The translations under genes and the position numbers were made by a program. DNA of 64,000 nucleotides, taken from Actinoplanes sp. L3-i22. Its GTDB lineage: Bacteria; Actinomycetota; Actinomycetes; Mycobacteriales; Micromonosporaceae. Shown here in pieces: positions 815 to 56,490 of the stretch. The notes beneath the pieces were generated by a model. The model was not told the origin of the DNA, did no database searches, and saw only the letters and a program-made list of their open reading frames with translations. Where the stretch lies: contig NZ_AP024745.1 of the NCBI RefSeq assembly GCF_019704555.1, forward strand, positions 814,501-878,500. Direction: 5' to 3'. How positions within the stretch are numbered: position 1 is the first letter of the stretch; each line of letters opens with the position of its first letter.

Positions 815-1651
815 ATGACCCGGCTAGCTCGATGGGCCGCCGTGCTCGGCCTGACGTTGATGGCTTCGGTGAGCGGCTGCGATCGTGGATCGTCCGCCCA
901 GCCGCCCGGGTGCGCGATCCCGACGGCCCCGCCGGCCGGGGCCTACGCGCCGTCCGGGAGCGCGCCCGGTGGTGGCGGCCTCGTGGTGGTCGATCATGGG
1001 TTCACCGAGGTCGGCGGCAGGTTCAACGTGAGTCTGGGCGGCTTGGTGCGCAACACCAGCGAGAAGATCGCCTACCGCACCGAGGTCCGGCTGCGGATCA
1101 CCGACGGGCAGGGCCGGGACGCGGTCCACCCGTCGCAGGCCGCCTGGCTCCTCCAGGAGATTCCGGTGATCCGCCCCGGCGAGGTGGCGGCGATCGGAGT
1201 GACGCTCAATACCCGGACCGACGTGAGCCCGGATGAGACTCCGGACCGGGTGACCTCGTTCGCGGTGAAGCTCGGTTCGTCGACCTGGCTGCCGGTCGAG
1301 GACGGGGCGTGGTTCCCGGCTTTCCCGGTCACCGTTGAGCGGATCGAGCGGAACGGTGCGGCATCGGTCGACGGCGGAGTGCGGTACTCGGTCGCCTCGA
1401 CGGCCTGCCGCCAGATGATCGCTCGGGGGACGGGCGCGGTCTTCCTCGACAAGTCCGGTGCCGTGGTCGGCGGCCTGATCGATGTGGCGGGGGGCGCGAT
1501 CCATTGCGGAAAGTCCGGATTCACCGACAAGACCGTGGCCAGCGACATTCCGCTGGGCATCGACGAGGCGAAGACGGTGGTGACCGAGTACTGCGATGTC
1601 GCGAAGTCGCAGTGGGGGGTCTACCGGCCGTCCGGGGCGCCGATCAATTGA
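815..1651 (+). CDS. Predicted lipoprotein with a beta-sandwich-like domain
   Basis: ATG 815 follows a GAGAGG ribosome-binding site at 805-810 and gives a typical lipoprotein signal: RR-rich start, hydrophobic stretch and the lipobox VSGC at about residues 20-23. An ATG at 785 lacks such a site. The mature protein (278 residues in total) has a Pro/Gly-rich linker, then a region (GGLVRNTSEKIAYRTEVRL and following) that looks like the FxLYD/CARDB type of extracellular beta-sandwich. It has several Cys residues (STACRQM, IHCGKSG, TEYCDV). Its stop lies in the palindrome TCAATTGA shared with the convergent GH26 lipoprotein gene. No enzyme motif was seen; a surface-binding role is an inference. Confidence 0.75.
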   Translation: MTRLARWAAVLGLTLMASVSGCDRGSSAQPPGCAIPTAPPAGAYAPSGSAPGGGGLVVVDHGFTEVGGRFNVSLGGLVRNTSEKIAYRTEVRLRITDGQGRDAVHPSQAAWLLQEIPVIRPGEVAAIGVTLNTRTDVSPDETPDRVTSFAVKLGSSTWLPVEDGAWFPAFPVTVERIERNGAASVDGGVRYSVASTACRQMIARGTGAVFLDKSGAVVGGLIDVAGGAIHCGKSGFTDKTVASDIPLGIDEAKTVVTEYCDVAKSQWGVYRPSGAPIN

Positions 1652-2651
1652 GTTTGCGGGCGTTGAAGTACGGGTCCTTGACCAGCGAGTGGAACGCGCC
1701 GAACGCCGCCCGGTCCCCACTCAACCGGAACTGCTGATTGGGCCCGTTCCCCGCCGGATCCGACTCGAAGTACGCGACCGCCTTGATCTGCCGGTTCGCC
1801 TTGAACGTCCGCTCCGCGTCCCGGAGCCACGCCGCCCGATTGGCCGACCCCCACGCCTTCGCCACCCCGAACTCGCCGATGATGATCGGTTTCGGGCGCT
1901 GGCCCGCCCACTGCAGGAACGGCCCCATCAGCTCCCCGATCGGCTGGAACGAGGCGCCGGCGTACACGTCCACGCAGTTCCAGTCGACCTGGTCGTCGCC
2001 GGGGTAGAAGTCGGCGGCCTCGCCGCGCTGGAAGCCCTCGGCGGTCGGGCACCACACCCAGGACACGTTGTCGGCGCGCTCCCGCTTGAAGATCGCCCGC
2101 ACGTATTTCCAGGCCGCGATGTAGTCGGCGCCGGACCACATGGTCGCCCGCAGGTTGGGCCGGTCCATCTCCCAGCGCATCCGCAACAGCACCGGCTGCT
2201 TGATCCGCCGGATCGCCCGGGCCTGTTCCCGGATCAGCGCGTCGTGCTCGCCGTCCAGGATGGACCGGTTGTCGCCGGTCGCCCAGCTGATCATCAGGGA
2301 TTGCCCCTGGGACAGGAACTCCTGATCGGATTCGGTCCCGACCATCTGGTCGAAGCGGCGGTACGTGTTCAGGATGTCCAGCCGGCGCCCGAGGGAGCTC
2401 TCCAGCGAGCCGACCGCGGCCAGGCGCCCGACGTGGGTCAGCTCCTCGGGCTTGATCCACGCCCCGACGTACGCCCCCTTCGCCGGAGGCGCGAACGGCC
2501 CGGCGGCGAACGGACCACCCTGCACCGCGACGGCCTGCGGCCGGCCGGAAAGATCCGGCGAGGGCTCCGGCGCCGGCTCCTTCTTGTCGTCACTGCAGGC
2601 CGCTACCAGCAGAAGTACGGCGATCAGTACGCCCGTGACCGCCCTACGCAT
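1644..2651 (-). CDS. GH26-type glycoside hydrolase lipoprotein
   Basis: The 335-residue product starts at ATG 2651, overlapping the stop of the upstream methyltransferase gene by 8 bases. It has a lipoprotein signal ending in VAAC (Cys 19), then a Pro/Glu-rich linker, so it should be anchored outside the membrane. The catalytic domain follows the GH26 (beta-mannanase/endoglucanase) layout: a presumed acid/base Glu at about 161 in LLRMRWEMDRP and a nucleophile Glu at about 260 in PIIIGEFGVAKAW. The normal HEMNG around the acid/base is changed to WEMDR, so substrate preference is uncertain. As last gene of the surface-polysaccharide operon it may trim or release the glycan made by the other products. 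Confidence 0.75.
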   Translation of the reverse strand: MRRAVTGVLIAVLLLVAACSDDKKEPAPEPSPDLSGRPQAVAVQGGPFAAGPFAPPAKGAYVGAWIKPEELTHVGRLAAVGSLESSLGRRLDILNTYRRFDQMVGTESDQEFLSQGQSLMISWATGDNRSILDGEHDALIREQARAIRRIKQPVLLRMRWEMDRPNLRATMWSGADYIAAWKYVRAIFKRERADNVSWVWCPTAEGFQRGEAADFYPGDDQVDWNCVDVYAGASFQPIGELMGPFLQWAGQRPKPIIIGEFGVAKAWGSANRAAWLRDAERTFKANRQIKAVAYFESDPAGNGPNQQFRLSGDRAAFGAFHSLVKDPYFNARKLN

Positions 2652-3381
2652 GGACGCGCCGCGCCGTGTAGAGCACATTGACCGCGTACCCGTCGGTGCC
2701 GGGCAGGCGTTGCGCGGCCGCGTCGGCGAGCCGGGCCAGCCGGTTGTCGTGCAGCGACGGGGTGAGCATGGAGAAGCCGCGGCGTTCCACGATCTCGAAG
2801 CCGTGCCGGTCGAGCAGCGCCGCGACCTCCTCGTGGGACAGTTCGGCGAACCAGCGCCGGCCGCGGTGCCGCCGGGCCCGCAGGTGCCGGACCGAGCCGG
2901 CGTTGCCGTGGTTCTCCACGACCAGCAGCCCGGAGCCGCGGTGCGGCAGCGCCTTGGCGGCGAACGCGAGCGCCCGGTCCCGGATCGTCTCGTGCACGTT
3001 GAGCAGCAGCCGGAAGATCGTCACGATGGCCGGGAAGCCGGCCGCGACCGGGGTGGGCACCGGCCCGTCGGTGGGCACCTGGTGCCAGTAGGCGCGCGAC
3101 CCGACCTCGGCCGCCTTCGCCATCATCTCGGCCGACGTGTCGTAGCCGTGCGCCTCGCGGACCAGTCCGTGCAGGGTCCGGATGGCCCGCCCGGTGCCGC
3201 AGGCGAAGTCGTGCTGGACCGGCGGGTGCTGGCCCTCGAACTCGCGGCGGACCAGCGAGCGCAGGTAGTCGCGCTGCCGCTCGTTGATCCGGGTCGCGTA
3301 GCTGTCCGGCGCGTACGTCACCGACTCGTACTTCTCGACCGCCTCGGTGTCCTGGAACACCTCGGTGTAATCGCTGGTCAA
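2644..3381 (-). CDS. Class I SAM-dependent methyltransferase
   Basis: The start is TTG 3381, placed 7 bases after a strong AGGAGG site; this gives 245 residues beginning MTSDYTEVFQDTEAVEKYES. SAM-binding motif I is HDFACGTGRAIRTL at about residues 60-73, and the following acidic residue is in HGYDTSAEMM. It resembles the UbiE/class I small-molecule methyltransferases. There is no membrane segment, so it acts in the cytoplasm. It lies between the flippase and GH26 genes in one overlapping operon, so O-methylation of a sugar or lipid-linked oligosaccharide is the likely role, but the substrate cannot be read from the sequence. Confidence 0.82.
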   Translation of the reverse strand: MTSDYTEVFQDTEAVEKYESVTYAPDSYATRINERQRDYLRSLVRREFEGQHPPVQHDFACGTGRAIRTLHGLVREAHGYDTSAEMMAKAAEVGSRAYWHQVPTDGPVPTPVAAGFPAIVTIFRLLLNVHETIRDRALAFAAKALPHRGSGLLVVENHGNAGSVRHLRARRHRGRRWFAELSHEEVAALLDRHGFEIVERRGFSMLTPSLHDNRLARLADAAAQRLPGTDGYAVNVLYTARRVHA

Positions 3382-3389
3382 CTCGCCTC

Positions 3390-4943
3390 CTAGGGGTTTC
3401 GTCGGGTGAACGCGCCGAGTTCGAGCCGGCCACGCAGCAGCCATCCGCCGGCGGCGAAGGCCGGGACGGCCAGCGCGACGGCGAGCGCCAGGCCGGCCGG
3501 CCCGCTCCCGAACAGGGCGGTCACCGCCCGGGGCAGCAGGCCGAAACAGCCGATCGAGAGCAGCGCGGCGGCCCGGGTGCCCGGACCGAACGGGTGCAGT
3601 CGGGTGCCACGGAAAACCTGGATCAGCGGCAGCAGGTTGTTGGCGACCATCGCGCCGGCCAGTCCCACGGCCGCGCCCAGCGCGCCCCACCGGGGAATCA
3701 ACAGCACGTCCAGGCCGATCGTGACGGCCAGGGCGACCAGGACGTTGCCGAGGTTCAGCGAGGTGCGCCCGGCCATCGACAGAACCATGTCGACCATGCC
3801 GCAGCCGGTGGCGATCAGCATCGCGACGGCGAGCAGCCGGACCACCGGCGCCCCGGCGGTGTACTCGTCGCCGAAGAACCGCAGGTAGTACGGCGCGAAC
3901 AGGATCACCAGCAGGCTCACCGGCCAGGTGATCAGGACCAGCCAGCCGGTGGCGACCTGGTAGAGCCGGTTCGCGCCGGCCCGGTCGCCGGTGCTCAGCG
4001 CCTCGGCCAGCCGCGGCTGCACGGACTGGGAGATGCCCTGGTTGGCGAACTGGATCAGGATCACGAACCGGCCGGCGACCGCGTAGACGGCGGCCGGCCC
4101 GAGTCCGCCGAGCGCGGCCACCAGCAGCACGTCGACCCGCTGCAGCGCGAGCTGGGCCACCGCGGCGAGCGCGCGCGGGCCGGTGAACAGCCAGAAGTCG
4201 CGGCGCAACCGGCGGCGTTCGGCCCGTTCCGAGGCCGCGCTCCGGGGGCGTCCGGCGAGGTAGAGGCGGCGGGCCGCGTACGCGGAAAAGATCGTGACCG
4301 GAAGGTAGGGGGCGGCCCAGGCCAGCGCGAAGATCGGCAGCGAAGCTGCCGCGAAGAGACCGGCCGCACCGACCGCGAGCAGTTGCAGGCAGCTGCGCAG
4401 GATCCGGTCCAGCAGCACGGTCGGCCGCATCGAGCGGTACCCGCGGGTCACCGTGAGCAGCACGTCGGTCAGGGCCTGGAGCGGGACGAAGACGGCCAGC
4501 ACGCGCAGCCCGACGACGATCCCGGGCGCCTCGTGGGCGGTGAGCCGGGCGATCTCCGGCGCGGCCGTCCACACCACCGTCGCCAGGATCAGCGAGAACA
4601 CGAGAACCGGGACCAGGCCGGTCCGCAGGCAGGCGCCGAGCAGGTGACTGCGGCCGGTGGCCCGCAGCCGGGCCGGCCAGTAGACCAGCCCGGTGTTGGT
4701 GCCGAGCTTGGCCAGGCCGCCGGCCAGCACGAACGCGGCGGTGGCGGAGAAGAACGCGCCGGCCTCGGCCTGTCCGAGGCGGCGGGCGACGACCCAGGTG
4801 ACCAGCACGCCGGTGCCGCCGGCCAGCGCGGAGCCGGCCATGTTGGCCAGTCCGCCGCGGGCCGCGCCCCGGGTGCCGCGGCCGGGCGTGGCCGCCGGAT
4901 CGGCGCCGGGCGGGGCCGGGTCGGTGAGCGAGCCGGCCGTCAC
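3390..4943 (-). CDS. Wzx-type polysaccharide flippase (MOP superfamily)
   Basis: The 517-residue protein has a disordered Pro/Gly/Arg-rich start (about 1-30), followed by roughly 12-14 hydrophobic segments, for example LAGGTGVLVTWVVARRLG, LVPVLVFSLILATVVW and LVLITWPVSLLVILFAPYYL. This arrangement fits the MOP flippases (Wzx, MurJ, TagGH-like exporters) that move lipid-linked sugars across the membrane. Its ATG overlaps the sulfotransferase stop by 4 bases, and its TAG is 9 bases before the methyltransferase TTG. Context supports export of a modified polysaccharide repeat unit to the outer face, where the ligase/polymerase-like protein of the same operon would act. Confidence 0.85.
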   Translation of the reverse strand: MTAGSLTDPAPPGADPAATPGRGTRGAARGGLANMAGSALAGGTGVLVTWVVARRLGQAEAGAFFSATAAFVLAGGLAKLGTNTGLVYWPARLRATGRSHLLGACLRTGLVPVLVFSLILATVVWTAAPEIARLTAHEAPGIVVGLRVLAVFVPLQALTDVLLTVTRGYRSMRPTVLLDRILRSCLQLLAVGAAGLFAAASLPIFALAWAAPYLPVTIFSAYAARRLYLAGRPRSAASERAERRRLRRDFWLFTGPRALAAVAQLALQRVDVLLVAALGGLGPAAVYAVAGRFVILIQFANQGISQSVQPRLAEALSTGDRAGANRLYQVATGWLVLITWPVSLLVILFAPYYLRFFGDEYTAGAPVVRLLAVAMLIATGCGMVDMVLSMAGRTSLNLGNVLVALAVTIGLDVLLIPRWGALGAAVGLAGAMVANNLLPLIQVFRGTRLHPFGPGTRAAALLSIGCFGLLPRAVTALFGSGPAGLALAVALAVPAFAAGGWLLRGRLELGAFTRRNP

Positions 4944-5818
4944 CGGCGGCGCCAGATCGGCGTGTGCCCCAGCCAGCCGGCGAGCGCCTCGTCGTGTGAC
5001 TGGTAGTAGGCGCTCAGGTCGTGGCGCAGTCGCGGGTCCATGTCGGCCTGCCGGGGGCGGGCGTTGTGCTGCTCGAACGCCGGTCGTTCCAGGTCCGGCG
5101 GGAGCCCGAGGAACCGGCAGACCTCGTCGTAGACCGGCTCCGGGTCGGTGAAGAAGCGCTCGCTCTCCACCACGTGGATGCGTTCGCGGCCGACGTGCTG
5201 GGCCATCACGCTGAGGTAGCGGGCGTATTCGCCGCGGGCCCGGTAGGCGTGGTGCTGATGGGCGAAGCTGTAGTACTCCGGGTCGCTGGCCAGGCGTTCC
5301 TCCTGCCGGTGCAGCCGGGCCGGTTCCAGCGCGACCGCCGAGCCGAAGTCACGCTCCGTCTCGAAACCCCGCGCGACCTCGTGGTGGTGCTGTGAGTAGG
5401 CGCGCTCCACCGGATCCCGGACCAGAACCACGAGCTTTGCGTACGGCAGGTCGTGCGCGATCCGAGCCACCGCCTGCGGGTGGTACATGTAGTACGGACT
5501 GGACTCGAAGGTCTGGGCCGGTACGCCGTACTTCTCGGCGATCCGCTCGGCCGACCGCCGGGCCGGGAAGTGCGCCCGGTACCAGTCGATCCCGCGCTGG
5601 TACGACGTGTCGAAGTAGTGCACGCCCTTGTGCAGCACGGCCTTGAGCACCACCGGGTGCGCGGCCAGCGCGCGGTAGAGCGAGGTGGTCCCGCACCGCT
5701 GGCCGCCGCAGATCAGGAACGACGGCAGCATCCGGTGATCCGAGGTGAGCCGGCCGTACGAGCGGGAGCCCAGGTGCACCACCCGCTTCATCGGGGCGGG
5801 CAGTTTGCGGACGTTCAT
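4940..5818 (-). CDS. PAPS-dependent sulfotransferase
   Basis: The 292-residue protein carries the two PAPS-binding sites of the Sulfotransfer_1/3 families. The 5'-phosphosulfate loop is ICGGQRCGTTSLYRAL near residues 36-51, with Arg replacing the more usual Lys. The 3'-phosphate motif is KLVVLVRDPVERAYSQ near 128-143, with R134 and S142. The C-terminus has a SAYYQSHDEALAGWLG helix common in heparan/glycan-type enzymes. There is no signal or membrane segment. It should transfer sulfate from PAPS to a hydroxyl group, probably on the cluster's glycan or lipid-linked oligosaccharide. The same operon encodes an APS kinase. The start region sits in a 29-30 base duplication that creates a 10-codon upstream frame. 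Confidence 0.88.
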   Translation of the reverse strand: MNVRKLPAPMKRVVHLGSRSYGRLTSDHRMLPSFLICGGQRCGTTSLYRALAAHPVVLKAVLHKGVHYFDTSYQRGIDWYRAHFPARRSAERIAEKYGVPAQTFESSPYYMYHPQAVARIAHDLPYAKLVVLVRDPVERAYSQHHHEVARGFETERDFGSAVALEPARLHRQEERLASDPEYYSFAHQHHAYRARGEYARYLSVMAQHVGRERIHVVESERFFTDPEPVYDEVCRFLGLPPDLERPAFEQHNARPRQADMDPRLRHDLSAYYQSHDEALAGWLGHTPIWRRR

Positions 5819-5868
5819 TCCAGCTCCTCAACACGGCGGACGTTCATCTAGAGCTCCTCAACACGCCG
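5809..5868. repeat. Imperfect tandem duplication of 29-30 bases at a gene junction
   Basis: The block beginning ggacgttcat at 5809 is repeated at 5838. Within it, acgttcat recurs 29 bases later (5811 and 5840) and agctcctcaacacg recurs 30 bases later (5822 and 5852). Each copy carries, on the minus strand, a GTTGAGGAGCT element and an ATGAACGTCCG start. One copy is the end of the kinase gene and the other leads into the sulfotransferase gene. It looks like a slipped-strand duplication of the kinase stop, ribosome-binding site and start codon. Confidence 0.8.
5815..5847 (-). CDS. Possible 10-codon upstream frame (MNVRRVEELE) created by duplication
   Basis: ATG 5847 follows the kinase TAG (5850-5848) with no gap, and the TGA (5817-5815) overlaps the sulfotransferase ATG 5818 as ATGA. 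GAGGAGC upstream, at the kinase gene end, is a plausible ribosome-binding site. The peptide is composed of duplicated pieces: the sulfotransferase N-terminus (MNVR) and the kinase C-terminus (RRVEEL). It could couple translation of kinase and sulfotransferase; whether it is translated is unknown. Confidence 0.4.
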   Translation of the reverse strand: MNVRRVEELE

Positions 5869-7086
5869 GATGAGCACCGGCAGCAGCCAGGTGCCGAGCA
5901 CGCCGAGCCGGGCGCCGGCCTCGGCCTGCCGGTCGGTCAGATAGCGCACGGCCAGGTCGACCAGGTACAGCAGCGCGGTCGTCTCGCGGGCCACCGGCGC
6001 CACCCCGAACGGGGCCAGCAACTCGTCGGCCCGCTTGACCGTGGCCTCCACCGCGGCCCGCGCGTCGCCGCTGGTCTGAATACGTTTCTGCAGCTCGTGG
6101 TGCACGGCGTCGAAGCCGAGCGGCACCCCGGTGGCGAACCGCTCCCAGTCCCAGACGAGCAGCGCGTCGGCGAGGTTCGCCATGTTCCACGGTGCCCAGT
6201 CGCCGTGCCACGCCCCGTAGCGCAGCGTGGTCTCGCCGCCGTGCGTGGCGAGCAGGTCGACGGCGGCGGCGAGCGCGGCGCCCTCGGCGCGGTCGGCGAC
6301 CGCAGCCAGCCGGGCGCGCAACTCGTGCCAGTACGCGCTCTGGCTCAGCGGCCCGGTGGTGTATCCGCAGCACCCGGCGATGTCGAGCATCGCGGCGGTG
6401 AGCCGGCGCGGGGTCAGCGGCGCCCGGGGCAGCCACACCGGCAGCGCCGACTGGACCAGCACCTGCAGCCCACGCCACTGGCCGGCGTGCAGCACCCGGG
6501 GAATGGTCAGCTTGGTCAGCCCGCTGCTGCCGATCGCGTTCAGCGCGGCGGTCTCGGCGCGGACCAGGCGCTGGGTGAGCGGCCCGGTCCCGATCTTGCC
6601 GAAGGCGAACGTCTCGCCCTCGGGGGTGAGCAGCTGCAGCACCGGCTTGCGGTTGGCGCGCGCCGGACCGATGTGGACACTTACTGACAAATCGCGCCGG
6701 AGCGCGTCGCTCAGATATCCGTCGATGCTGGCCGAGACCGGGCCGGTGACCCGGATCCGGTCCCGGAACACCAGCCGGTCGGCGCGGGCGTGCACGGCGG
6801 CGACCACCGCGTTGCGCTTCAGCCGGGCCATCCGGGACTGCGGCTCGGCGTAGCGGCGGACGGCGGCCGCGGCGATCGCCGGGGACGCGTTCGGGACCAG
6901 CAGGCGGGGGCGGTGCGCGTTCGGCACCACCAGGTACTCCGCGATCAGGTTGCGCTCGCCGTCGTCGTCGCGCGAGGTCCGGCACGGCGGCGGATAGAGC
7001 AGCGACAGGACCTCGGTCAGATATTGGGTACGCAGTGCGGCGTCGCCCGCGGTCAATTCGGCGGGCGCGGTCTTTACCGGACTCAT
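5848..7086 (-). CDS. Aminoglycoside-phosphotransferase-fold kinase
   Basis: The 412-residue protein has the APH/choline-kinase catalytic pieces: HGDWAPWN (about 294-301, catalytic Asp and Asn) and the metal-binding VWDWERF (about 311-317). A candidate nucleotide-binding Lys is in TFAFGKIGTG (about 164). The N-terminal 100 residues have no family I recognise. Its ATG overlaps the stop of the ligase-like gene by 4 bases. An antibiotic-resistance role is unlikely in this operon; phosphorylation of a sugar, polyprenol or glycan intermediate is more plausible. No membrane segment is visible, so it is cytoplasmic. The substrate is unknown. Confidence 0.72.
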   Translation of the reverse strand: MSPVKTAPAELTAGDAALRTQYLTEVLSLLYPPPCRTSRDDDGERNLIAEYLVVPNAHRPRLLVPNASPAIAAAAVRRYAEPQSRMARLKRNAVVAAVHARADRLVFRDRIRVTGPVSASIDGYLSDALRRDLSVSVHIGPARANRKPVLQLLTPEGETFAFGKIGTGPLTQRLVRAETAALNAIGSSGLTKLTIPRVLHAGQWRGLQVLVQSALPVWLPRAPLTPRRLTAAMLDIAGCCGYTTGPLSQSAYWHELRARLAAVADRAEGAALAAAVDLLATHGGETTLRYGAWHGDWAPWNMANLADALLVWDWERFATGVPLGFDAVHHELQKRIQTSGDARAAVEATVKRADELLAPFGVAPVARETTALLYLVDLAVRYLTDRQAEAGARLGVLGTWLLPVLIRRVEEL

Positions 7087-8453
7087 TCGTTGTCAGTCCC
7101 CTCGATCCAGTTGCGCCAGAGCAGCGCGTACGCCAGAACCATGAAGGCAAGCGGGGTGACCAGGGAGTTGTACCAGAGCATCGCGGAGAACGAGCTGACC
7201 AGCGCGGCGCTGCCGGCCACCCCGATCGCGCTGCGGTCCCGGCGGAACCGCCACAGGCCGTACCCGAAGAAGCCCAGATAGCCCGCGGTGCCCACCGCGC
7301 CGTGCGAGAAGAGCAACTGCCAGAGCTGCCCGTTGCCGCCGATGGTGAAGTTGCCGCAGCGCTCGCACTCGGAGCTCTCGCCGACCGTGATCGAGTTGCG
7401 CCCGCCGAGGGTGTTGCGGGTGCCGCCGTAACCGATCACCGGGGAGTCGGCGAAGCCGGCCACCGCCCGCTCGGTCAGGAACGCGCGGACGCCGTTCGAC
7501 TTGCCGTTGTCCAGCCGGGCCTGCACGGTGTTGCCGAGCGGGGTGGCGGCCAGCGCCACCGCGATCGCCGCGGCGGTCACCGCCAGCGCGCCGAGGATCC
7601 AGAGCTGGCCGGCGAGCACGTAGCGGGCCGACACGTAGAGCAGGAGCACGCCGAGCCCGATCCACAGGCCCCGGTTCAGCGAGACCACCGCCGGCGCGAC
7701 CGAGACCAGCAGGCACAGCCAGGCGAATGTCCGCTTGCGGCGGCTCGCGGTCGCCGCGGCGGCCACCAGCAGCCAGCCGACCAGCAGGCAGAAGTTGTTG
7801 CCCCAGGTGTTGGTGTAGCCCCAGGGCGCGGCCGGGCGCGGCGCGGCGCCACCGACCAGGTCCATGATCTGGGCGGCGTACGGATGCACCAGCGACCGCA
7901 CGAACCCCTTGTCCCGGATCCCGTGCGGCAGCAGCCACTCCACCGGCGAGGTGAACTCGAAGTTCCCGGCCACCATCCCGAGCAGGCCGCCGAGCACGGT
8001 CAGCACGAACATGCCGGCCAGCAGCCGGACCAGGCGGCGTTGGGACAGCTCGCGCGCGGTCAGGTTCCCGGCGTAGAGCAGGAGCACGGTGAGCGACACG
8101 TACATCGCAAGTTTGTAGATGACCGCGGGCAGGCGGCCCGCCGCCCGCTCGACCACCGTGCCGCCGGGGTCCGCGCCGAGCGCGGCGATGCTCACCACCA
8201 CGGCCAGCAGGAACACCACCCACCAGGTGAAACCGGGTGGCACGCGGAGCGGGCGACCGGCGGCCCGGCGCCGGATCAGCAGGAACAGCATCGGCGCGGC
8301 CAGCACCGGGAAGATCAGCACGCCCAGGCCGAGCGCCCACCAGAGCGGGTAGAGCAGCAGGATCCCGGCGACCGGCCAGGCCGGCAGGGTGAGGTCCTTG
8401 GTGGCGCCGCGGTCCGCCGGGCGGGTGGGGGTCGCCGGGACGACCGTGGTCAC
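7083..8453 (-). CDS. O-antigen ligase/polymerase-like membrane protein (Wzy/WaaL type)
   Basis: GTG 8453 overlaps the upstream stop as GTGA and gives 456 residues. About ten hydrophobic helices are visible, including WPVAGILLLYPLWWALGLG near the start and TLPLAFMVLAYALL-like segments at the end. A large extracytoplasmic loop lies between helices (about residues 320-400, SITVGESSECERCGNFTIGG), as in O-antigen ligase and polymerase families. Arg/His residues in this loop would be candidates for substrate contact. In the cluster it most likely polymerises or ligates the exported repeat units. The frame remains open far upstream, but that part is the wrong frame of the next gene. Confidence 0.75.
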   Translation of the reverse strand: MTTVVPATPTRPADRGATKDLTLPAWPVAGILLLYPLWWALGLGVLIFPVLAAPMLFLLIRRRAAGRPLRVPPGFTWWVVFLLAVVVSIAALGADPGGTVVERAAGRLPAVIYKLAMYVSLTVLLLYAGNLTARELSQRRLVRLLAGMFVLTVLGGLLGMVAGNFEFTSPVEWLLPHGIRDKGFVRSLVHPYAAQIMDLVGGAAPRPAAPWGYTNTWGNNFCLLVGWLLVAAAATASRRKRTFAWLCLLVSVAPAVVSLNRGLWIGLGVLLLYVSARYVLAGQLWILGALAVTAAAIAVALAATPLGNTVQARLDNGKSNGVRAFLTERAVAGFADSPVIGYGGTRNTLGGRNSITVGESSECERCGNFTIGGNGQLWQLLFSHGAVGTAGYLGFFGYGLWRFRRDRSAIGVAGSAALVSSFSAMLWYNSLVTPLAFMVLAYALLWRNWIEGTDNE

Positions 8454-10165
8454 TTCTCGTCGCCGTCCGTGGCGCCCGTGCCGGACCGCTCGATGATCGT
8501 GGTCTGCTCGCCGGTCTCGTCGGCCGGGCGCTGCCGCACCGAGGTGGCCGCGACCGGCTCCTTCAGCGCGGAGATCTGCTGGGTGGCCTCGTCGATGATC
8601 GGCTCGTGGCCGGGCGACGGCAGGGCCACGGCCGGTTCGGCCAGGCTCCCGGTCCGCCGGGCGGTCAGCCGGGGCAGCACCACCGCGCCGAGCAGCCGGG
8701 TGCCGACCCGCTGCAGTTGCTCGGCCGCGTCGACCAGGGCCGGGCGGGCGGTCCGGCGCAGCTCGACCGCGAGGATCGCGGCGTCGGCGAAACTGGCCAG
8801 GCTCTGCGCGTCGGCGCTGCTGCTGGTGGACGGGGCCTCGATCACCACGTAGCCACCCTGCCGGCGCAGCGCGTCCAGGGTGTCCCGCAGCCGCTGCGAC
8901 TGCATCAGCCCGGCCGCGGTGGCCGCGCCGCCGGTGGTGATCACCCGCAGCGACGGGATGCGCGGCGTGCGCTGCAGCACCCGGTTCAGGGCGACCCGGC
9001 CGGCGAGCATCTCGGAGAGGCCGGGCACGGCCGCGACGCCGAGCATGCGGGCCAGGGGTGCCGCGTCGACCACACTGTCCGGGAGGTGTGCGCCGATCAG
9101 GACGACATCGCTTCCGGTACGGGCGAGCGCCGCCGCCAGATTCGCGGCCACCAGCGTGCTGGCCGAGCCACGGCTGGTCCCGGTCACCACGATCACCCGG
9201 TCGTCGGCGTTCAGACTGGCCAGGACCTCGTTGCGGAGCCGGTTGAAGACCCGGCCGCCGGGGCCGTAGGGCTGCAGCACGTCGTCGAAGTGCGGGGTGG
9301 TCCGGCCGTCCAGGGTGGCCAGGACCGGTACGCGGCCCCGGTCCCGGACGTCCACCGCGGTGACCAGCCGCCGGTCGAACCGCTCCCGCAGGTAGGCCAG
9401 CGCCAGCCCGAGCAGCAGCCCGATCATCCCGCCGGTCGCGATGTCCAGCAGCGTGTTCGGGCTGGACGGCTTGTCCGGCAGGCGGGCGTCGCTGATGATG
9501 CTGCCGTTGTTGATCGTGGTGGTGGTCACCTCGTTCAGCCGGCCGGTCAGGCTGTTCAGCTGGTTCTGCGAGTTGCTGCGCAGGCTCATCAGGTTGCTCT
9601 CGATGGAGCTGCCCCGGCGGGCCTGGGACAACTTCGCGTTGATCCCGGTGAGCGCGATGGTGAGCTGCTTGACCTTCAGGTTCAGCGAGGCGATCTGCCG
9701 GTCCAGCGCGGACCGGGCGGTCTCCTCGCGGTTGCGCAGGTACGCCTCGGCGAACGCGTGCGACCCGGCCTGCGCCTTCAGCGGGCTGTCCGCCTGGAAC
9801 GTGATCACCAGAACCGTGGTGTTCGCCGGGACCTGCACCGACACCGAGTGCGCCAGCTCCAGCGGCGACACGTCGGTGCGCAGCAGCGCGACGGCCTTCG
9901 CGGCGACCGCGCCGGAGCCGACCAGCTGGGCCTCGGTGTCCAGGTTGACCGAGCCCTTGGTCCGGCCGCCCTGGGCGTTGGTGTCCTGGTCGACCGCCTG
10001 CACCAGGACCGACGAGGAGGACTCGTAGACCCGGGGCAGGGAGTGCGTGACCGTGGCGCCGACGCCCAGTCCCGCGGCTGTCGCCACCAGGGCGATCCAC
10101 CAGTGCCGGCGAACCGCGCCCAGGTAGTGCGCGACATCGGAGGACGGTGGGCGAGACGCTTCCAT
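8450..10165 (-). CDS. Wzz/BY-kinase-like chain-length protein with degenerate P-loop
   Basis: The 571-residue protein begins with a Wzz-type chain-length domain: membrane helix 1 at about 23-40, an extracytoplasmic coiled region (about 45-235) and helix 2 at about 244-259 preceded by the Pro-rich DKPSSPNT. A ParA/BY-kinase-like cytoplasmic domain follows (about 300-500). Its P-loop equivalent is GTSRGSAST (about 329-337), which lacks the Walker A Lys, and no C-terminal tyrosine cluster is seen. ATP hydrolysis or tyrosine phosphorylation is therefore doubtful, so it may be a structural co-polymerase. It probably controls chain length together with the ligase/polymerase-like protein, whose gene overlaps it. 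Confidence 0.82.
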   Translation of the reverse strand: MEASRPPSSDVAHYLGAVRRHWWIALVATAAGLGVGATVTHSLPRVYESSSSVLVQAVDQDTNAQGGRTKGSVNLDTEAQLVGSGAVAAKAVALLRTDVSPLELAHSVSVQVPANTTVLVITFQADSPLKAQAGSHAFAEAYLRNREETARSALDRQIASLNLKVKQLTIALTGINAKLSQARRGSSIESNLMSLRSNSQNQLNSLTGRLNEVTTTTINNGSIISDARLPDKPSSPNTLLDIATGGMIGLLLGLALAYLRERFDRRLVTAVDVRDRGRVPVLATLDGRTTPHFDDVLQPYGPGGRVFNRLRNEVLASLNADDRVIVVTGTSRGSASTLVAANLAAALARTGSDVVLIGAHLPDSVVDAAPLARMLGVAAVPGLSEMLAGRVALNRVLQRTPRIPSLRVITTGGAATAAGLMQSQRLRDTLDALRRQGGYVVIEAPSTSSSADAQSLASFADAAILAVELRRTARPALVDAAEQLQRVGTRLLGAVVLPRLTARRTGSLAEPAVALPSPGHEPIIDEATQQISALKEPVAATSVRQRPADETGEQTTIIERSGTGATDGDEK

Positions 10166-10248
10166 CGGTCTACGCGGCCTTTCGAGGAGGAGTTTTGGGC
10201 GTTTCGCCCCAAGGGCTCCAACGCCCTACTCCCGCCGCGAGTGATGGG

Positions 10249-11769
10249 TCAGCTCAGTTTGGGCTCCACCCAGCCGTTCTCGACCAGGTAGCTGAGGATC
10301 GTCTCGACCGCCTCGGAGACCGACATCGTGGTGGTGTCGATGGTCAGCTCGGCGTCCAGCGGCTCCTCGTACGGATCATCGACGCCGGTCATCCCGCGCA
10401 GCTGACCGGCGCGGGCCCGGGCGTAGAGGCCCTTGCGGTCGCGCCGCTCGCAGACCTCGAGCGGGGTGGCCACGTGCACCAGCACGAACCCGGCGCCGGC
10501 CTCCACCGCCATCCGGCGCACCGAGGAGCGGGCCGCCTCGTACGGCGCGATCGGGCAGGCCACCGCCATGCCCCGGTGCCGGCCCACCTCGGCCGCCACC
10601 CAGCCGATCCGGCGGACGTTGCGGTCCCGGTCCGCCTTGCTGAAGCCCAGCCCGGCGGTCAGCTCCCGGCGCACCACGTCGCCGTCCAGCAGGGTGACCG
10701 TCCGCTCGCCGGTCTCCCGCAGCGTGTCGGCCAGGTTCCGGGCGATCGTCGACTTGCCGGAGCCGGACAGGCCGGTGAAGAAGAGCACCAGGCCCCGGTG
10801 CCGGCGCGGCGGCCGGACCCGGGACAGCTCCTTCGCGACCGCGGGCGGGGTGTGCCACTCGGGCAGCGGGAAGCCCCGGTCCAGCAGGTCCTCGATCTCG
10901 TCCGGGGGCATCGCCAGGCGGCGGTTGCGCGGCGGGATGTCGTCCCGCCACCGCCACTGGCCGTCCCGGTTGTCGTAGGCCAGCTCGCGCGGCACCAGCA
11001 CGCGCAGCCCGGCGCCGGACAGCGTGTCGCCGGTGGAGAGGACGTGGGTGACGCCGTACGACGCGGCGACCCGGGAGCGCAGCAGGGCGTCGCGCATCTC
11101 GTCGCCGTGCGGCGACACCGGCACCGCGACGATGGTCGCCGGGGGCATCCGGTCCCGGGCCGCGAAGATCGCCCGGACCAGCGCCTCGGGGGGCAACCCG
11201 TCCGGCCCGTGGCCACTGACCGGAATCAAGATCAAAAGATGAGCTGCCAGGGTACGGGCGGCGTGCGCGATCTGGGCGAGCTGCGGCCGGTGCAGCGGGC
11301 GGTCGGCGATCACGCCGAGCACCCGGCCGGGCGGCAGCAGCGACCGGACCTCCTCCGGCGTGCGGCGCAGGCGCTGGAACGGGCCGTGGCCGCCGTCGCC
11401 CATCTTGCGCACCGGGCCGCCGACGCCGTACCGGTTCTCGGCGACCTTCCAGACGTCCAGGGCCTCGATCGCGGCGATCGGGGCGCCCTCCAGGTCGGTG
11501 AGCACCACGGCGCGCCGCGCCGGATCGGCCGGGTCCAGTCGCTCGGCCAGCTCCTGCGGGACCTCCAGGGTGACCGGGACCGGCCAGGGCGTGCCGTCGG
11601 CGAGCCGGCCGGTGCGCGCCAGCGCCACCAGGTCGGCGCGCGCCAGGAATCCGGTCAGCGGCGCGTATGCCCCGGAGAGCAACAGTTCGAGATCTGCCAG
11701 CTCAAAGGGGCGCGGGGCGTACGACGGTGCGTCCCGTAGGACGTCTTCCGGCAAAACCGAGCCACTCAC
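10249..11769 (-). CDS. cysC: Adenylyl-sulfate (APS) kinase with degenerate ATP-sulfurylase-like N-terminal half
   Basis: GTG 11769 follows an AAGGGG site and gives 506 residues. The C-terminal half (about 325-500) is a complete APS kinase: P-loop GLSGSGKST (333-341), LDGDVVR (361-367), FSKADRDRNVRRIG (376-389) and KGLYARAR. The N-terminal half follows the ATP sulfurylase plan, but its active-site strings are changed. The QxRNPxHxxH region reads IADRPLHRPQ (154-163), and the GRDHAG region reads STGDTLSG (245-252). It probably cannot make APS, while it should phosphorylate APS to PAPS. As first gene of the operon it likely supplies PAPS to the sulfotransferase encoded downstream. Confidence 0.85.
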   Translation of the reverse strand: MSGSVLPEDVLRDAPSYAPRPFELADLELLLSGAYAPLTGFLARADLVALARTGRLADGTPWPVPVTLEVPQELAERLDPADPARRAVVLTDLEGAPIAAIEALDVWKVAENRYGVGGPVRKMGDGGHGPFQRLRRTPEEVRSLLPPGRVLGVIADRPLHRPQLAQIAHAARTLAAHLLILIPVSGHGPDGLPPEALVRAIFAARDRMPPATIVAVPVSPHGDEMRDALLRSRVAASYGVTHVLSTGDTLSGAGLRVLVPRELAYDNRDGQWRWRDDIPPRNRRLAMPPDEIEDLLDRGFPLPEWHTPPAVAKELSRVRPPRRHRGLVLFFTGLSGSGKSTIARNLADTLRETGERTVTLLDGDVVRRELTAGLGFSKADRDRNVRRIGWVAAEVGRHRGMAVACPIAPYEAARSSVRRMAVEAGAGFVLVHVATPLEVCERRDRKGLYARARAGQLRGMTGVDDPYEEPLDAELTIDTTTMSVSEAVETILSYLVENGWVEPKLS

Positions 11770-11907
11770 CTTGTATCCCCTTGCCGCGGCCGACTTGGGT
11801 GACAGTTTCGCAGCCCGGTTCCAGCCGGTCGAGGCGGGCTCGCGATCTCGCGCTCACGTCCACAAATTCGCCCGTTTGCCTGATCTCAGGTTAGTTTTCC
11901 GTCTTCC

Positions 11908-11935
11908 TGGACAAATCTGGGCAATCCTTTAATAT
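11908..11935 (+). promoter_or_regulatory. Predicted promoter, giving a leaderless transcript
   Basis: A TGGACA box (11908-11913; 5 of 6 match to TTGACA) is followed after 16 bases by TAATAT (11930-11935). Transcription would begin about 11942-11945, at or next to the GTG start at 11945. No ribosome-binding site precedes that GTG, so the mRNA may be leaderless. The surrounding DNA is unusually AT-rich for this window. Confidence 0.55.
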
Positions 11936-11944
11936 TGGGCGATT

Positions 11945-13045
11945 GTGAGACAGAACCCGCATGTCGCCTTCGTCGCCACGGCCTTCACGATGGCCGTGGC
12001 GGTCGTGCTCTCCTGGGCCTGGACCGGCGGCGTCCGACCACCCGCCGACGACCGGGTGCTGGCCGCCCACGCCCAGCCGGCCGCCGCCGCACCGGCCCGG
12101 GCCTGCCGCACCGGCTACAAACTCGTGCCCACCTGCGGCATCCTGTGGGGCGTGGCGCCCGGCGCGCGGACCGAGGACCACGGCTTCGACGCGCTCACCG
12201 ACTTCGAGCGCAAGACCGGCCGGCACCAGGCCGTCTACCACGCGTACCACCACGGGATCCGGCAGCTGTTCCCGACGCCGCAGGAGATCGCGATCGCCCG
12301 GCAGCCCGGCAAGAAGCGGGTCCTGCTGCTCAACTGGAAACCGGAGAGCACCACCTGGGCGCGGATCGCCCGCGGCGACCGGCGCACCGACGCGTTCCTG
12401 GACCGGCTCGCCGCGCACATCCACCGCGACTTCCGCGAGCCGTTCTTCTTCGCGATCCACCACGAGGCCGAGGACCAGGTGCGCGAGCGGCGCGGGTCCG
12501 GATACACCGCGCGGGACTATGCGGCGATGTACCGGCACGTGGTCACCCGGTTGCGGGCCCGCGGCGTGACGAACGTGGTCACCGTGCTCGTGCACATGGC
12601 GTACGTGCCGCACACCTCGAAGAGCTGGTTCAGCGACATGTACCCCGGCGACGACGTGGTCGACTGGATCGGGTTCGACACGTACTCCTACAGCGACCCC
12701 GGGTACGGCCACGGCGACTTCGCCGAGCTGCTCAACCGGCGGTCGGCGATGAAACCGCAGTGGCCCGGCTTCTACAACTGGGTACGCGCGCACCACCCCC
12801 GCAAACCGCTGATGGTGGCCGAGTGGGGCGTCTGGTTCAGCCGGCGCAACCCCGGGCACATGGCCGCGTTCTACCGCGAGGTGGGGCAGCAGATCGGGCG
12901 CTTCCCGGCGATCAAGGCGATGGTGCACTTCGAGACACCGGCCAACCGCAAGGGCCAGGACTCGTCGGTGGACAGCACCCCGGCCGCGCTCCGGGAGTAC
13001 CGTCGGCTGGGCCGGCTCCCGGTCTTCCAGGTCTCGCTGGGCTGA
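11945..13045 (+). CDS. Exported GH26-type glycoside hydrolase
   Basis: The 366-residue protein has an N-terminal hydrophobic segment (about 7-25, VAFVATAFTMAVAVVLSWAW) that acts as a signal or anchor, then an Ala/Pro linker. Its catalytic domain carries a presumed acid/base Glu at 174 in FFFAIHHEAEDQ and a nucleophile Glu at 293 in LMVAEWGVWFS, as in the GH26 (mannanase-like) fold. Another typical string is DWIGFDTYSYS. It is divergent from the polysaccharide operon and shares a 175-base intergenic region with it. It is a distant relative of the GH26 lipoprotein at 1644-2651. Likely acts outside the cell on the cluster's glycan; the substrate is unproven. Confidence 0.78.
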   Translation: MRQNPHVAFVATAFTMAVAVVLSWAWTGGVRPPADDRVLAAHAQPAAAAPARACRTGYKLVPTCGILWGVAPGARTEDHGFDALTDFERKTGRHQAVYHAYHHGIRQLFPTPQEIAIARQPGKKRVLLLNWKPESTTWARIARGDRRTDAFLDRLAAHIHRDFREPFFFAIHHEAEDQVRERRGSGYTARDYAAMYRHVVTRLRARGVTNVVTVLVHMAYVPHTSKSWFSDMYPGDDVVDWIGFDTYSYSDPGYGHGDFAELLNRRSAMKPQWPGFYNWVRAHHPRKPLMVAEWGVWFSRRNPGHMAAFYREVGQQIGRFPAIKAMVHFETPANRKGQDSSVDSTPAALREYRRLGRLPVFQVSLG

Positions 13046-44190: not shown

Positions 44191-44273
44191 GCCCGGGTGG
44201 TGGAATGGCAGACACGGCCGCCTTAAAAGCGGCTGCCCTAACAGGCGTGCGGGTTCGAGACCCGCCCCGGGCA
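44191..44273 (+). tRNA. bldA: tRNA-Leu (anticodon UAA), bldA homologue
   Basis: The acceptor arms GCCCGGG (44191-44197) and CCCGGGC (44266-44272) pair fully, followed by discriminator A; the CCA end is not encoded. The anticodon stem GCCGC/GCGGC encloses the loop CTTAAAA, giving anticodon TAA. A variable arm (TGCCCTAACAGGCG) and the T-loop TTCGAGA are present, as in type II tRNA-Leu. In streptomycetes this tRNA (bldA) is the only reader of the rare UUA codon and controls development and secondary metabolism. Confidence 0.95.
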
Positions 44274-56216: not shown

Positions 56217-56490
56217 CGAGAATCCCCGGAAATTAAGCGACCCCCGGGGACTTCCATGATTGAAAACCATGGTCCGGTCGGACAAGGCCGGATCCCCGGG
56301 GGTCGGGTGGCTGTCTGGTACTCGCCGGCCGCTGCCACACGGTCTCGACGTTCAAACGAAGCTGTCAAGGACAGCGGCTAGCGGACAGCCACCTCACGAG
56401 TCCCGATGCTATACAACTTCGGACCACCTCCTCTCACGTGTACGGCCACGTTAACCATCCGCCGCCGCCCGCGCCAACGGTTTTGAATCA
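56217..56490 (-). promoter_or_regulatory. Structured leader between PPK2 and rnz
   Basis: Several inverted repeats are packed here: CGACCCCCGGGGA (56238-56250) with TCCCCGGGGGTCG (56293-56305), perfect; CCATG/CATGG inside its loop (56254-56258, 56268-56272); GGTGGCTGTC (56306-56315) with GACAGCCACC (56384-56393); GCTGTC/GACAGC (56361-56375). On the minus strand a possible promoter TTGGCG-N18-TAACGT (56477-56448) and an AGGAGG site lie before a short open frame. It could be a regulatory leader for rnz plus a terminator for ppk2. Confidence 0.45.

Follow-up and report, generated by a model that had tools for sequence, protein, structure and literature searches.

A wps-1-type gene cluster for a probable sulfated polysaccharide in Actinoplanes sp. 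L3-i22 and the distribution of its core among Actinomycetes

The stretch of DNA analysed here (the window) comprises 64,000 nucleotides of Actinoplanes sp. L3-i22 (contig NZ_AP024745.1, positions 814,501 to 878,500), a genome that consists of one contig of 12,014,766 bases, and the system in question is a group of nine genes near its left end. Genes were called by codon composition and their proteins scored with Pfam and NCBIfam profiles. Eight leftward genes span positions 1644-11769 and a single divergent gene reads rightward at 11945-13045. Read from the left, the minus-strand genes encode a GH26-type glycoside hydrolase (1644-2651; PF02156 21.4 bits, cut-off 20.2), a class I S-adenosylmethionine-dependent methyltransferase (2644-3360; PF13489 26.9 bits, narrowly below the cut-off of 27), a Wzx-type flippase of the MatE family (3390-4943; PF01554 46.9 bits, cut-off 24.9), a sulfotransferase of the Sulfotransfer_1 family dependent on 3'-phosphoadenosine 5'-phosphosulfate (PAPS) (4940-5818; PF00685 58.4 bits), a small-molecule-kinase-like protein with aminoglycoside phosphotransferase (APH) fold (5848-7086; assigned from the fold of its AlphaFold model), a Wzy-like polymerase of the O-antigen ligase/polymerase superfamily (7083-8453; PF04932, Wzy_C, 24.3 bits, below the cut-off of 31.7), a Wzz-type chain-length regulator with a degenerate domain resembling bacterial tyrosine kinases (BY-kinases) (8450-10165; PF02706, Wzz, 27.3 and PF13807, GNVR, 28.1 bits, both over cut-off) and a two-domain adenosine 5'-phosphosulfate (APS) kinase with a degenerate ATP-sulfurylase domain (10249-11769; PF01583 182 bits). 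The divergent plus-strand gene codes for a further glycoside hydrolase of the GH26 type, which has a hydrophobic stretch at its N-terminus (PF02156 29.2 bits). An earlier note, made from the sequence alone, had listed these nine genes; all of them are present at the positions given there, and its protein identities (APS kinase, Wzz, Wzy, APH-fold protein, sulfotransferase, flippase, methyltransferase and two GH26 proteins) are upheld by Pfam or by the AlphaFold fold. Of the seven leftward junctions, four overlap as described there and three have gaps of 29-83 bases; one of the four overlaps requires that the flippase starts at GTG 4943, and the gene caller favoured a start at 4841.

No glycosyltransferase is encoded within the interval 1644-13045. 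The backbone enzymes had been expected elsewhere or further left, and indeed a GT2 and a GT26 gene were found 2.4-5.4 kb left of the window. In window coordinates the GT2 glycosyltransferase gene lies at -5422 to -4508, a second sulfotransferase gene (Sulfotransfer_3) at -4467 to -3544 and a divergent WecG/TagA/CpsF glycosyltransferase gene (GT26, WecG-type) at -3472 to -2423. These three genes complete the cluster. The WecG-type gene is followed by a DUF4262 gene, which in this genome is separated by several further genes from the GH26 gene at 1644-2651.

Such an arrangement has already been described. According to the accessible part of Tezuka & Ohnishi (June 2026; PMC13390465), the wps-1 cluster of Actinoplanes missouriensis comprises AMIS_7280-AMIS_7380 (wpsA-wpsK), followed by AMIS_7390 for a protein of the sulfurylase/APS-kinase family, and it shares with the locus described here the order GT2, sulfotransferase, WecG/GT26, DUF4262, GH26, methyltransferase, Wzx, sulfotransferase, kinase-like protein, Wzy, Wzz and sulfurylase/APS kinase. 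The window locus together with its left flank is the counterpart of wps-1 in another Actinoplanes, gene for gene: the leftward genes from 1644 to 10165 correspond to wpsE (GH26), wpsF (methyltransferase), wpsG (flippase), wpsH (sulfotransferase), wpsI (kinase-like), wpsJ (Wzy) and wpsK (Wzz), and the APS-kinase gene to AMIS_7390. In contrast with the window genome, the consecutive AMIS numbers leave no room for extra genes between DUF4262 and GH26. A locus with the same gene order including DUF4262, which we take to be that of A. missouriensis, was also found among the family genomes (L070 in genome G143), and its genes are 68-90% identical to those of the window.

In A. missouriensis, squashed sporangia resulted from the loss of wpsA, wpsC, wpsG, wpsH, wpsI, wpsJ or wpsK, as they did from deletion of the whole cluster, whereas the wpsE mutant formed a mixture of normal and abnormal sporangia and the wpsF mutant distorted, joined ones; deletion of wpsD was without effect and all other wps-1 genes are reported as needed for normal sporangia (PMC13390465, accessible text). 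Deletion of AMIS_7390 caused a severe defect that was called “unexpected”, and the authors infer a sulfated polysaccharide as product of wps-1. Thus, the core idea, i.e. the cluster, its mutants and a sulfated polysaccharide, is already in print, and what is added here is an argument from the sulfur pathway and the reach of the cluster across the class. The text of PMC13390465, as far as accessible, is silent on AMIS_7400, homologs, conservation and Micromonosporaceae, and a literature search, whose coverage excludes most subscription papers, returned no other paper on the cluster. The accessible text of a paper on a hydrolase of the sporangium matrix (PMC12691653) contains no word starting with “sulf”.

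For the distribution in the family, 27 loci of 20 kb each were compared that had been picked by their kinase match, which means that the kinase is present by choice (locus L069 was left out). Flippase, sulfotransferase, kinase, Wzy and Wzz are found in every one of them, and because of this constant grouping a cluster by chance is excluded. GT2 occurs in 25/27, the second sulfotransferase and WecG each in 26/27, the methyltransferase in 23/27 and the APS kinase in 21/27 loci; two of the six genomes without APS kinase in the 20 kb (G101 and G035) have one 13-17 kb from the kinase gene. The counts of the two GH26 genes depend on the rule applied because both match each other weakly, and amount to 19/27 and 26/27 with non-overlapping listing or 24/27 and 27/27 with the other rule. 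The search for the same gene order and nearby glycosyltransferases in relatives, proposed in the earlier note, thus reveals a cluster that is kept across Micromonosporaceae. A survey of named genomes covered 80 of 255 relatives, presumably all Micromonosporaceae genera or metagenome-assembled genomes, and yielded 75 full-length loci, 67 of them with all eight core genes. Among these loci are representatives of Asanoa, Catellatospora, Hamadaea, Longispora and Rhizocola, genera that are not known to form sporangia. The locus of Phytohabitans suffuscus (L117) is complete apart from matches to the methyltransferase and GT2. Five more distant loci of the family show a sulfotransferase near the kinase in four cases. 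The fifth (L191 in genome G003) has its kinase homologue beside GT2 and a weak Wzy match, with no sulfotransferase match nearby, and is perhaps a non-sulfated relative of the cluster.

The sulfotransferase at 4940-5818 (PF00685 and PF13469 matches of 58.4 and 53.9 bits) has the residues GGQRCGxT and RxPVERAxS, which we take to be PAPS-binding motifs, and both are invariant in 19 sequences. The protein encoded at 5848-7086 has no Pfam match, and a profile search against PDB sequences gave no match with E up to 1. Its AlphaFold model (predicted local distance difference test score 84.9) has the fold of an aminoglycoside-phosphotransferase-like kinase, and in the fold comparison APH, choline-kinase and fructosamine-kinase types fall within about 1.5 Z units, so that the substrate is not discriminated. 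In the Wzz protein the C-terminal BY-kinase-like domain (TIGR01007 80.3 bits, below the cut-off of 108) has no Walker A GK[ST] motif, its lysine being lost in all 27 sequences (own included), and the last 60 residues contain only 0-1 tyrosine. A working tyrosine autokinase of the Wzc type was rejected since both the Walker A lysine and the tyrosine-rich tail are missing; with 27/27 sequences retaining it, the dead domain seems to be kept for some reason. The Wzy_C score of the protein at 7083-8453 is weak, and the match does not distinguish between polymerase and ligase. Both GH26 proteins retain the two glutamates that are presumably catalytic (20/20 aligned sequences for the gene at 1644-2651 and 27/27 for the divergent one, own included), and the former has, judged by eye, a lipoprotein-like signal.

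The gene at 10249-11769 deserves particular attention. A genome-wide profile search shows that it encodes the sole APS kinase of this genome and also carries its sole domain of the ATP-sulfurylase family (PF01747). P-loop and DGD residues of the APS kinase domain are invariant (19 sequences). In the N-terminal domain, on the other hand, the segment iadrplhrpq aligns to QTRNPMHRAH of 1m8p with Q, N and the second His gone. Both the HxxH and the QxRN motif of ATP sulfurylases are lost in 19/19 sequences, and H160-R-P-Q163 is invariant where 1m8p has HRAH. A working bifunctional sulfurylase/kinase was rejected on account of these lost motifs, and the sulfurylase half is probably dead. The nearest solved relative, 3cr8, is the enzyme of Thiobacillus denitrificans, for which a paper by Gay et al. 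(2009) reports in its title, as cited in reference lists, that ATP sulfurylase activity is absent; in the Entamoeba histolytica enzyme of the same make-up (23vk) the sulfurylase half is described as non-functional in the accessible parts of PMC13213808 and PMC6715247. All three thus combine an inactive or motif-less ATP-sulfurylase-like N-terminal half with an intact APS kinase. The window enzyme differs from the other two in that it adjoins a polysaccharide cluster in an actinomycete and is known here from sequence.

What such an enzyme serves depends on the remaining sulfur pathway. CysD, CysN (430 aa, no kinase domain) and a CysQ-like protein, named from their translations, are encoded together elsewhere in the genome. 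The own CysH carries CC and CxxC cysteine pairs, which we take to be the mark of APS reductases, and it is nearest to 7lhr, with which both pairs align, whereas 7rge is without them. The pairs are found in all 26 family genomes with a CysH match (27 were searched; G030 gave no match and the match in G090 has one in-frame stop). With a CysH of this type and with CysD/CysN encoded elsewhere, cysteine should be made without PAPS, and loss of the APS-kinase gene should therefore hit sulfation alone. On the same grounds a role of this gene in cysteine synthesis was rejected, and the two-domain APS kinase should serve sulfation instead. This would explain the “unexpected” AMIS_7390 mutant and differs from the comment in PMC13390465 (accessible text) that links AMIS_7390 to sulfur amino acids. 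A comparable division is described for mycobacterial sulfate activation in the accessible part of PMC4373884, where APS is directly reduced for cysteine and APS kinase acts in the sulfation branch only; in mycobacteria, however, the APS kinase is fused to CysN, whereas in the window genome CysN stands alone and the fusion partner of the kinase is a degenerate sulfurylase. In further support of a sulfated product, genes resembling cysD and cysN adjoin the GT2 gene of the cluster in one relative (L066:456-2624, genome G035).

From these data we consider it likely that the locus is a wps-1 cluster that makes a sulfated, probably methylated polysaccharide via a Wzx/Wzy route and that in sporangium-forming species this polymer enters the sporangium matrix. 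In the scheme that we infer, as regards sulfate in the polymer, the order of the steps and the roles of kinase and hydrolases, CysD and CysN would make APS, which the two-domain APS kinase would turn into PAPS. A housekeeping transferase would start the repeat unit on an undecaprenyl carrier, where GT2 and the WecG-type GT26 would assemble it; the two sulfotransferases of different families as well as the methyltransferase would decorate it, and a sugar may be phosphorylated by the APH-fold kinase. The flippase would then export the unit, Wzy polymerise it and the Wzz-like protein set the length, and the GH26 enzymes may trim or release the polymer. The sulfated, methylated polysaccharide suggested in the earlier note hence agrees with the reading by the authors of the orthologous deletions and with the Wzx/Wzy route, but no chemistry shows the sulfate (PMC13390465, accessible text).

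Several observations weigh against this interpretation. That sulfate in the wps-1 product is chemically unproven is stated by the authors themselves, and the mutant in wpsB, the second sulfotransferase gene, looked normal with spore release about tenfold lower (PMC13390465, accessible text). The scores of Wzy and methyltransferase are both under the Pfam cut-offs, and the cluster has just two glycosyltransferases and no initiating sugar-phosphate transferase (two PF00953 genes lie elsewhere in the genome; PF02397 was not searched). The depositors of 7lhr name it a PAPS reductase, so that the assignment of a substrate to CysH depends on the cysteine pairs. An APS-kinase match over cut-off was found in 250/250 family genomes (in G074 just with E 9e-4), including 26 without a wpsI match; wpsI itself matches in 224/250, many of these matches being weak. 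As in the window genome, the APS kinase match of G143 is the only one there. PAPS could also be used by some ten additional sulfotransferase genes of the window genome, as 13 Sulfotransfer_3 matches are distributed over 12 genes, two of them in the wps cluster. An APS kinase private to the cluster was rejected for these reasons, and the claim in the earlier note that the cluster has its own PAPS-making enzyme is weakened: it is the only one of the genome, other sulfotransferase genes are present and therefore PAPS is shared. The placement of the APS kinase in the same operon is weakened as well, since AMIS_7390 was not activated together with wps-1 on day 3 in A. missouriensis (PMC13390465, accessible text) and the APS-kinase gene is separated from wzz by the divergent GH26 gene in several relatives. 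Apart from the cluster, five of the Sulfotransfer_3 genes lie within 10 kb (G000:C1:5288958-5298650; L211, L212, L213, L215 and L221), apparently as a separate sulfotransferase cluster.

The weak Wzy_C match (24.3 bits) is also compatible with a different product. The target of sulfotransferases and APS kinase could be a small glycolipid or an oligosaccharide linked to lipid, comparable to rhizobial Nod factors or mycobacterial sulfolipids. Instead of polymerising, the Wzy-like protein could then work as a ligase and attach a short sulfated oligosaccharide to the wall. The Wzy_C superfamily includes both polymerases and ligases, wall polymers are among the products of WecG/TagA-type GT26 enzymes, and with two glycosyltransferases only the unit may be short. 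Nevertheless, the Wzz-type chain-length protein in 27/27 family loci fits polymerisation, and deletion of wpsJ or wpsK gave the same squashed sporangia as deletion of the whole cluster (PMC13390465, accessible text), which makes this alternative rather unlikely. Still less probable, to our judgement very improbable, is a polymer without important sulfation. The proteins resembling sulfotransferases would then have some other target, and the phenotype of the APS-kinase mutant would be due to sulfur metabolism or to different sulfotransferases. It would accommodate the chemically unproven sulfate, the about ten other sulfotransferase genes and the link of AMIS_7390 to sulfur amino acids drawn by the authors of PMC13390465. 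However, the motifs of sulfotransferase and APS kinase are intact, loss of wpsH has an effect similar to loss of the flippase, of Wzy or of the whole cluster (PMC13390465, accessible text), and the CysH cysteine pairs with separate CysD/CysN argue that APS kinase is unneeded for cysteine. The sulfated Wzx/Wzy polysaccharide thus remains the preferred reading.

Outside the family the kinase profile matches 66 further genomes (69 of 394 in total, three of them in Micromonosporaceae). Fifteen of these 66 were examined, chiefly those with better matches, so the following rates are no estimate for all; left out were twelve kinase-matching genomes in which the match consists of two short segments (best E 1e-27 to 1e-32). 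A WpsH-like sulfotransferase is present in 15/15 loci, a Wzy-like protein in 14/15, a flippase in 13/15, Wzz in 12/15, a second sulfotransferase in 10/15, GT2 in 9/15 and an APS kinase in 3/15. The core of sulfotransferase, kinase and Wzy recurs in other actinobacterial families. WecG and methyltransferase gave no match in 20 loci (these 15 and the five distant ones of the family), and therefore both are, judging by the loci tested, features of the Micromonosporaceae form. Non-sporangial genera and other families retain a core of sulfotransferase, APH-fold kinase, Wzy, flippase and Wzz, to which GT2, GH26 and a second sulfotransferase are often added. We therefore tentatively suggest, without considering it the probable outcome, that a sulfated, possibly also phosphorylated polymer of the Wzx/Wzy route is common as a surface glycan among Actinomycetes, is older than the sporangium and is served by a sulfation-only two-domain APS kinase.

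Some further features of the window may be added. A candidate promoter of the divergent GH26 gene lies at 11908-11936 on the plus strand (consensus scan, two overlapping matches versus 0.3 expected); its hexamers stop about 9 bases ahead of the GTG and a leaderless transcript is possible. A tRNA gene is found at 44191-44273 on the plus strand (Rfam tRNA 54.6 bits), and at 56232-56441 on the minus strand there is a match of 112 bits to Rfam Ms_IGR-5, an actinobacterial small RNA.

Sulfated polysaccharides have been reported from marine bacteria as well as from cyanobacteria. In the accessible parts of PMC13390465 and PMC8205485 they are said to be confined, among bacteria, to the latter, and the xss cluster for synechan in Synechocystis sp. 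PCC 6803 resembles the cluster described here in having two sulfotransferases of different subfamilies together with Wzx, Wzy and a polysaccharide co-polymerase (PMC8205485). It differs in its eight glycosyltransferases (compared to two) and its own regulators, and the text accessible names no APS kinase, APH-fold kinase, methyltransferase or GH26 in it. Sulfate in the product was shown for xss.

If wps-type clusters make a sulfated polysaccharide, a good part of Actinomycetes may do so too and such polymers would not be a cyanobacterial speciality. The clusters would additionally be a source of new sulfotransferases and offer a system with few glycosyltransferases for study. Should the reading of the sulfur pathway be true, the “unexpected” APS-kinase mutant would be a mutant without cysteine need and would provide genetic support for sulfation.

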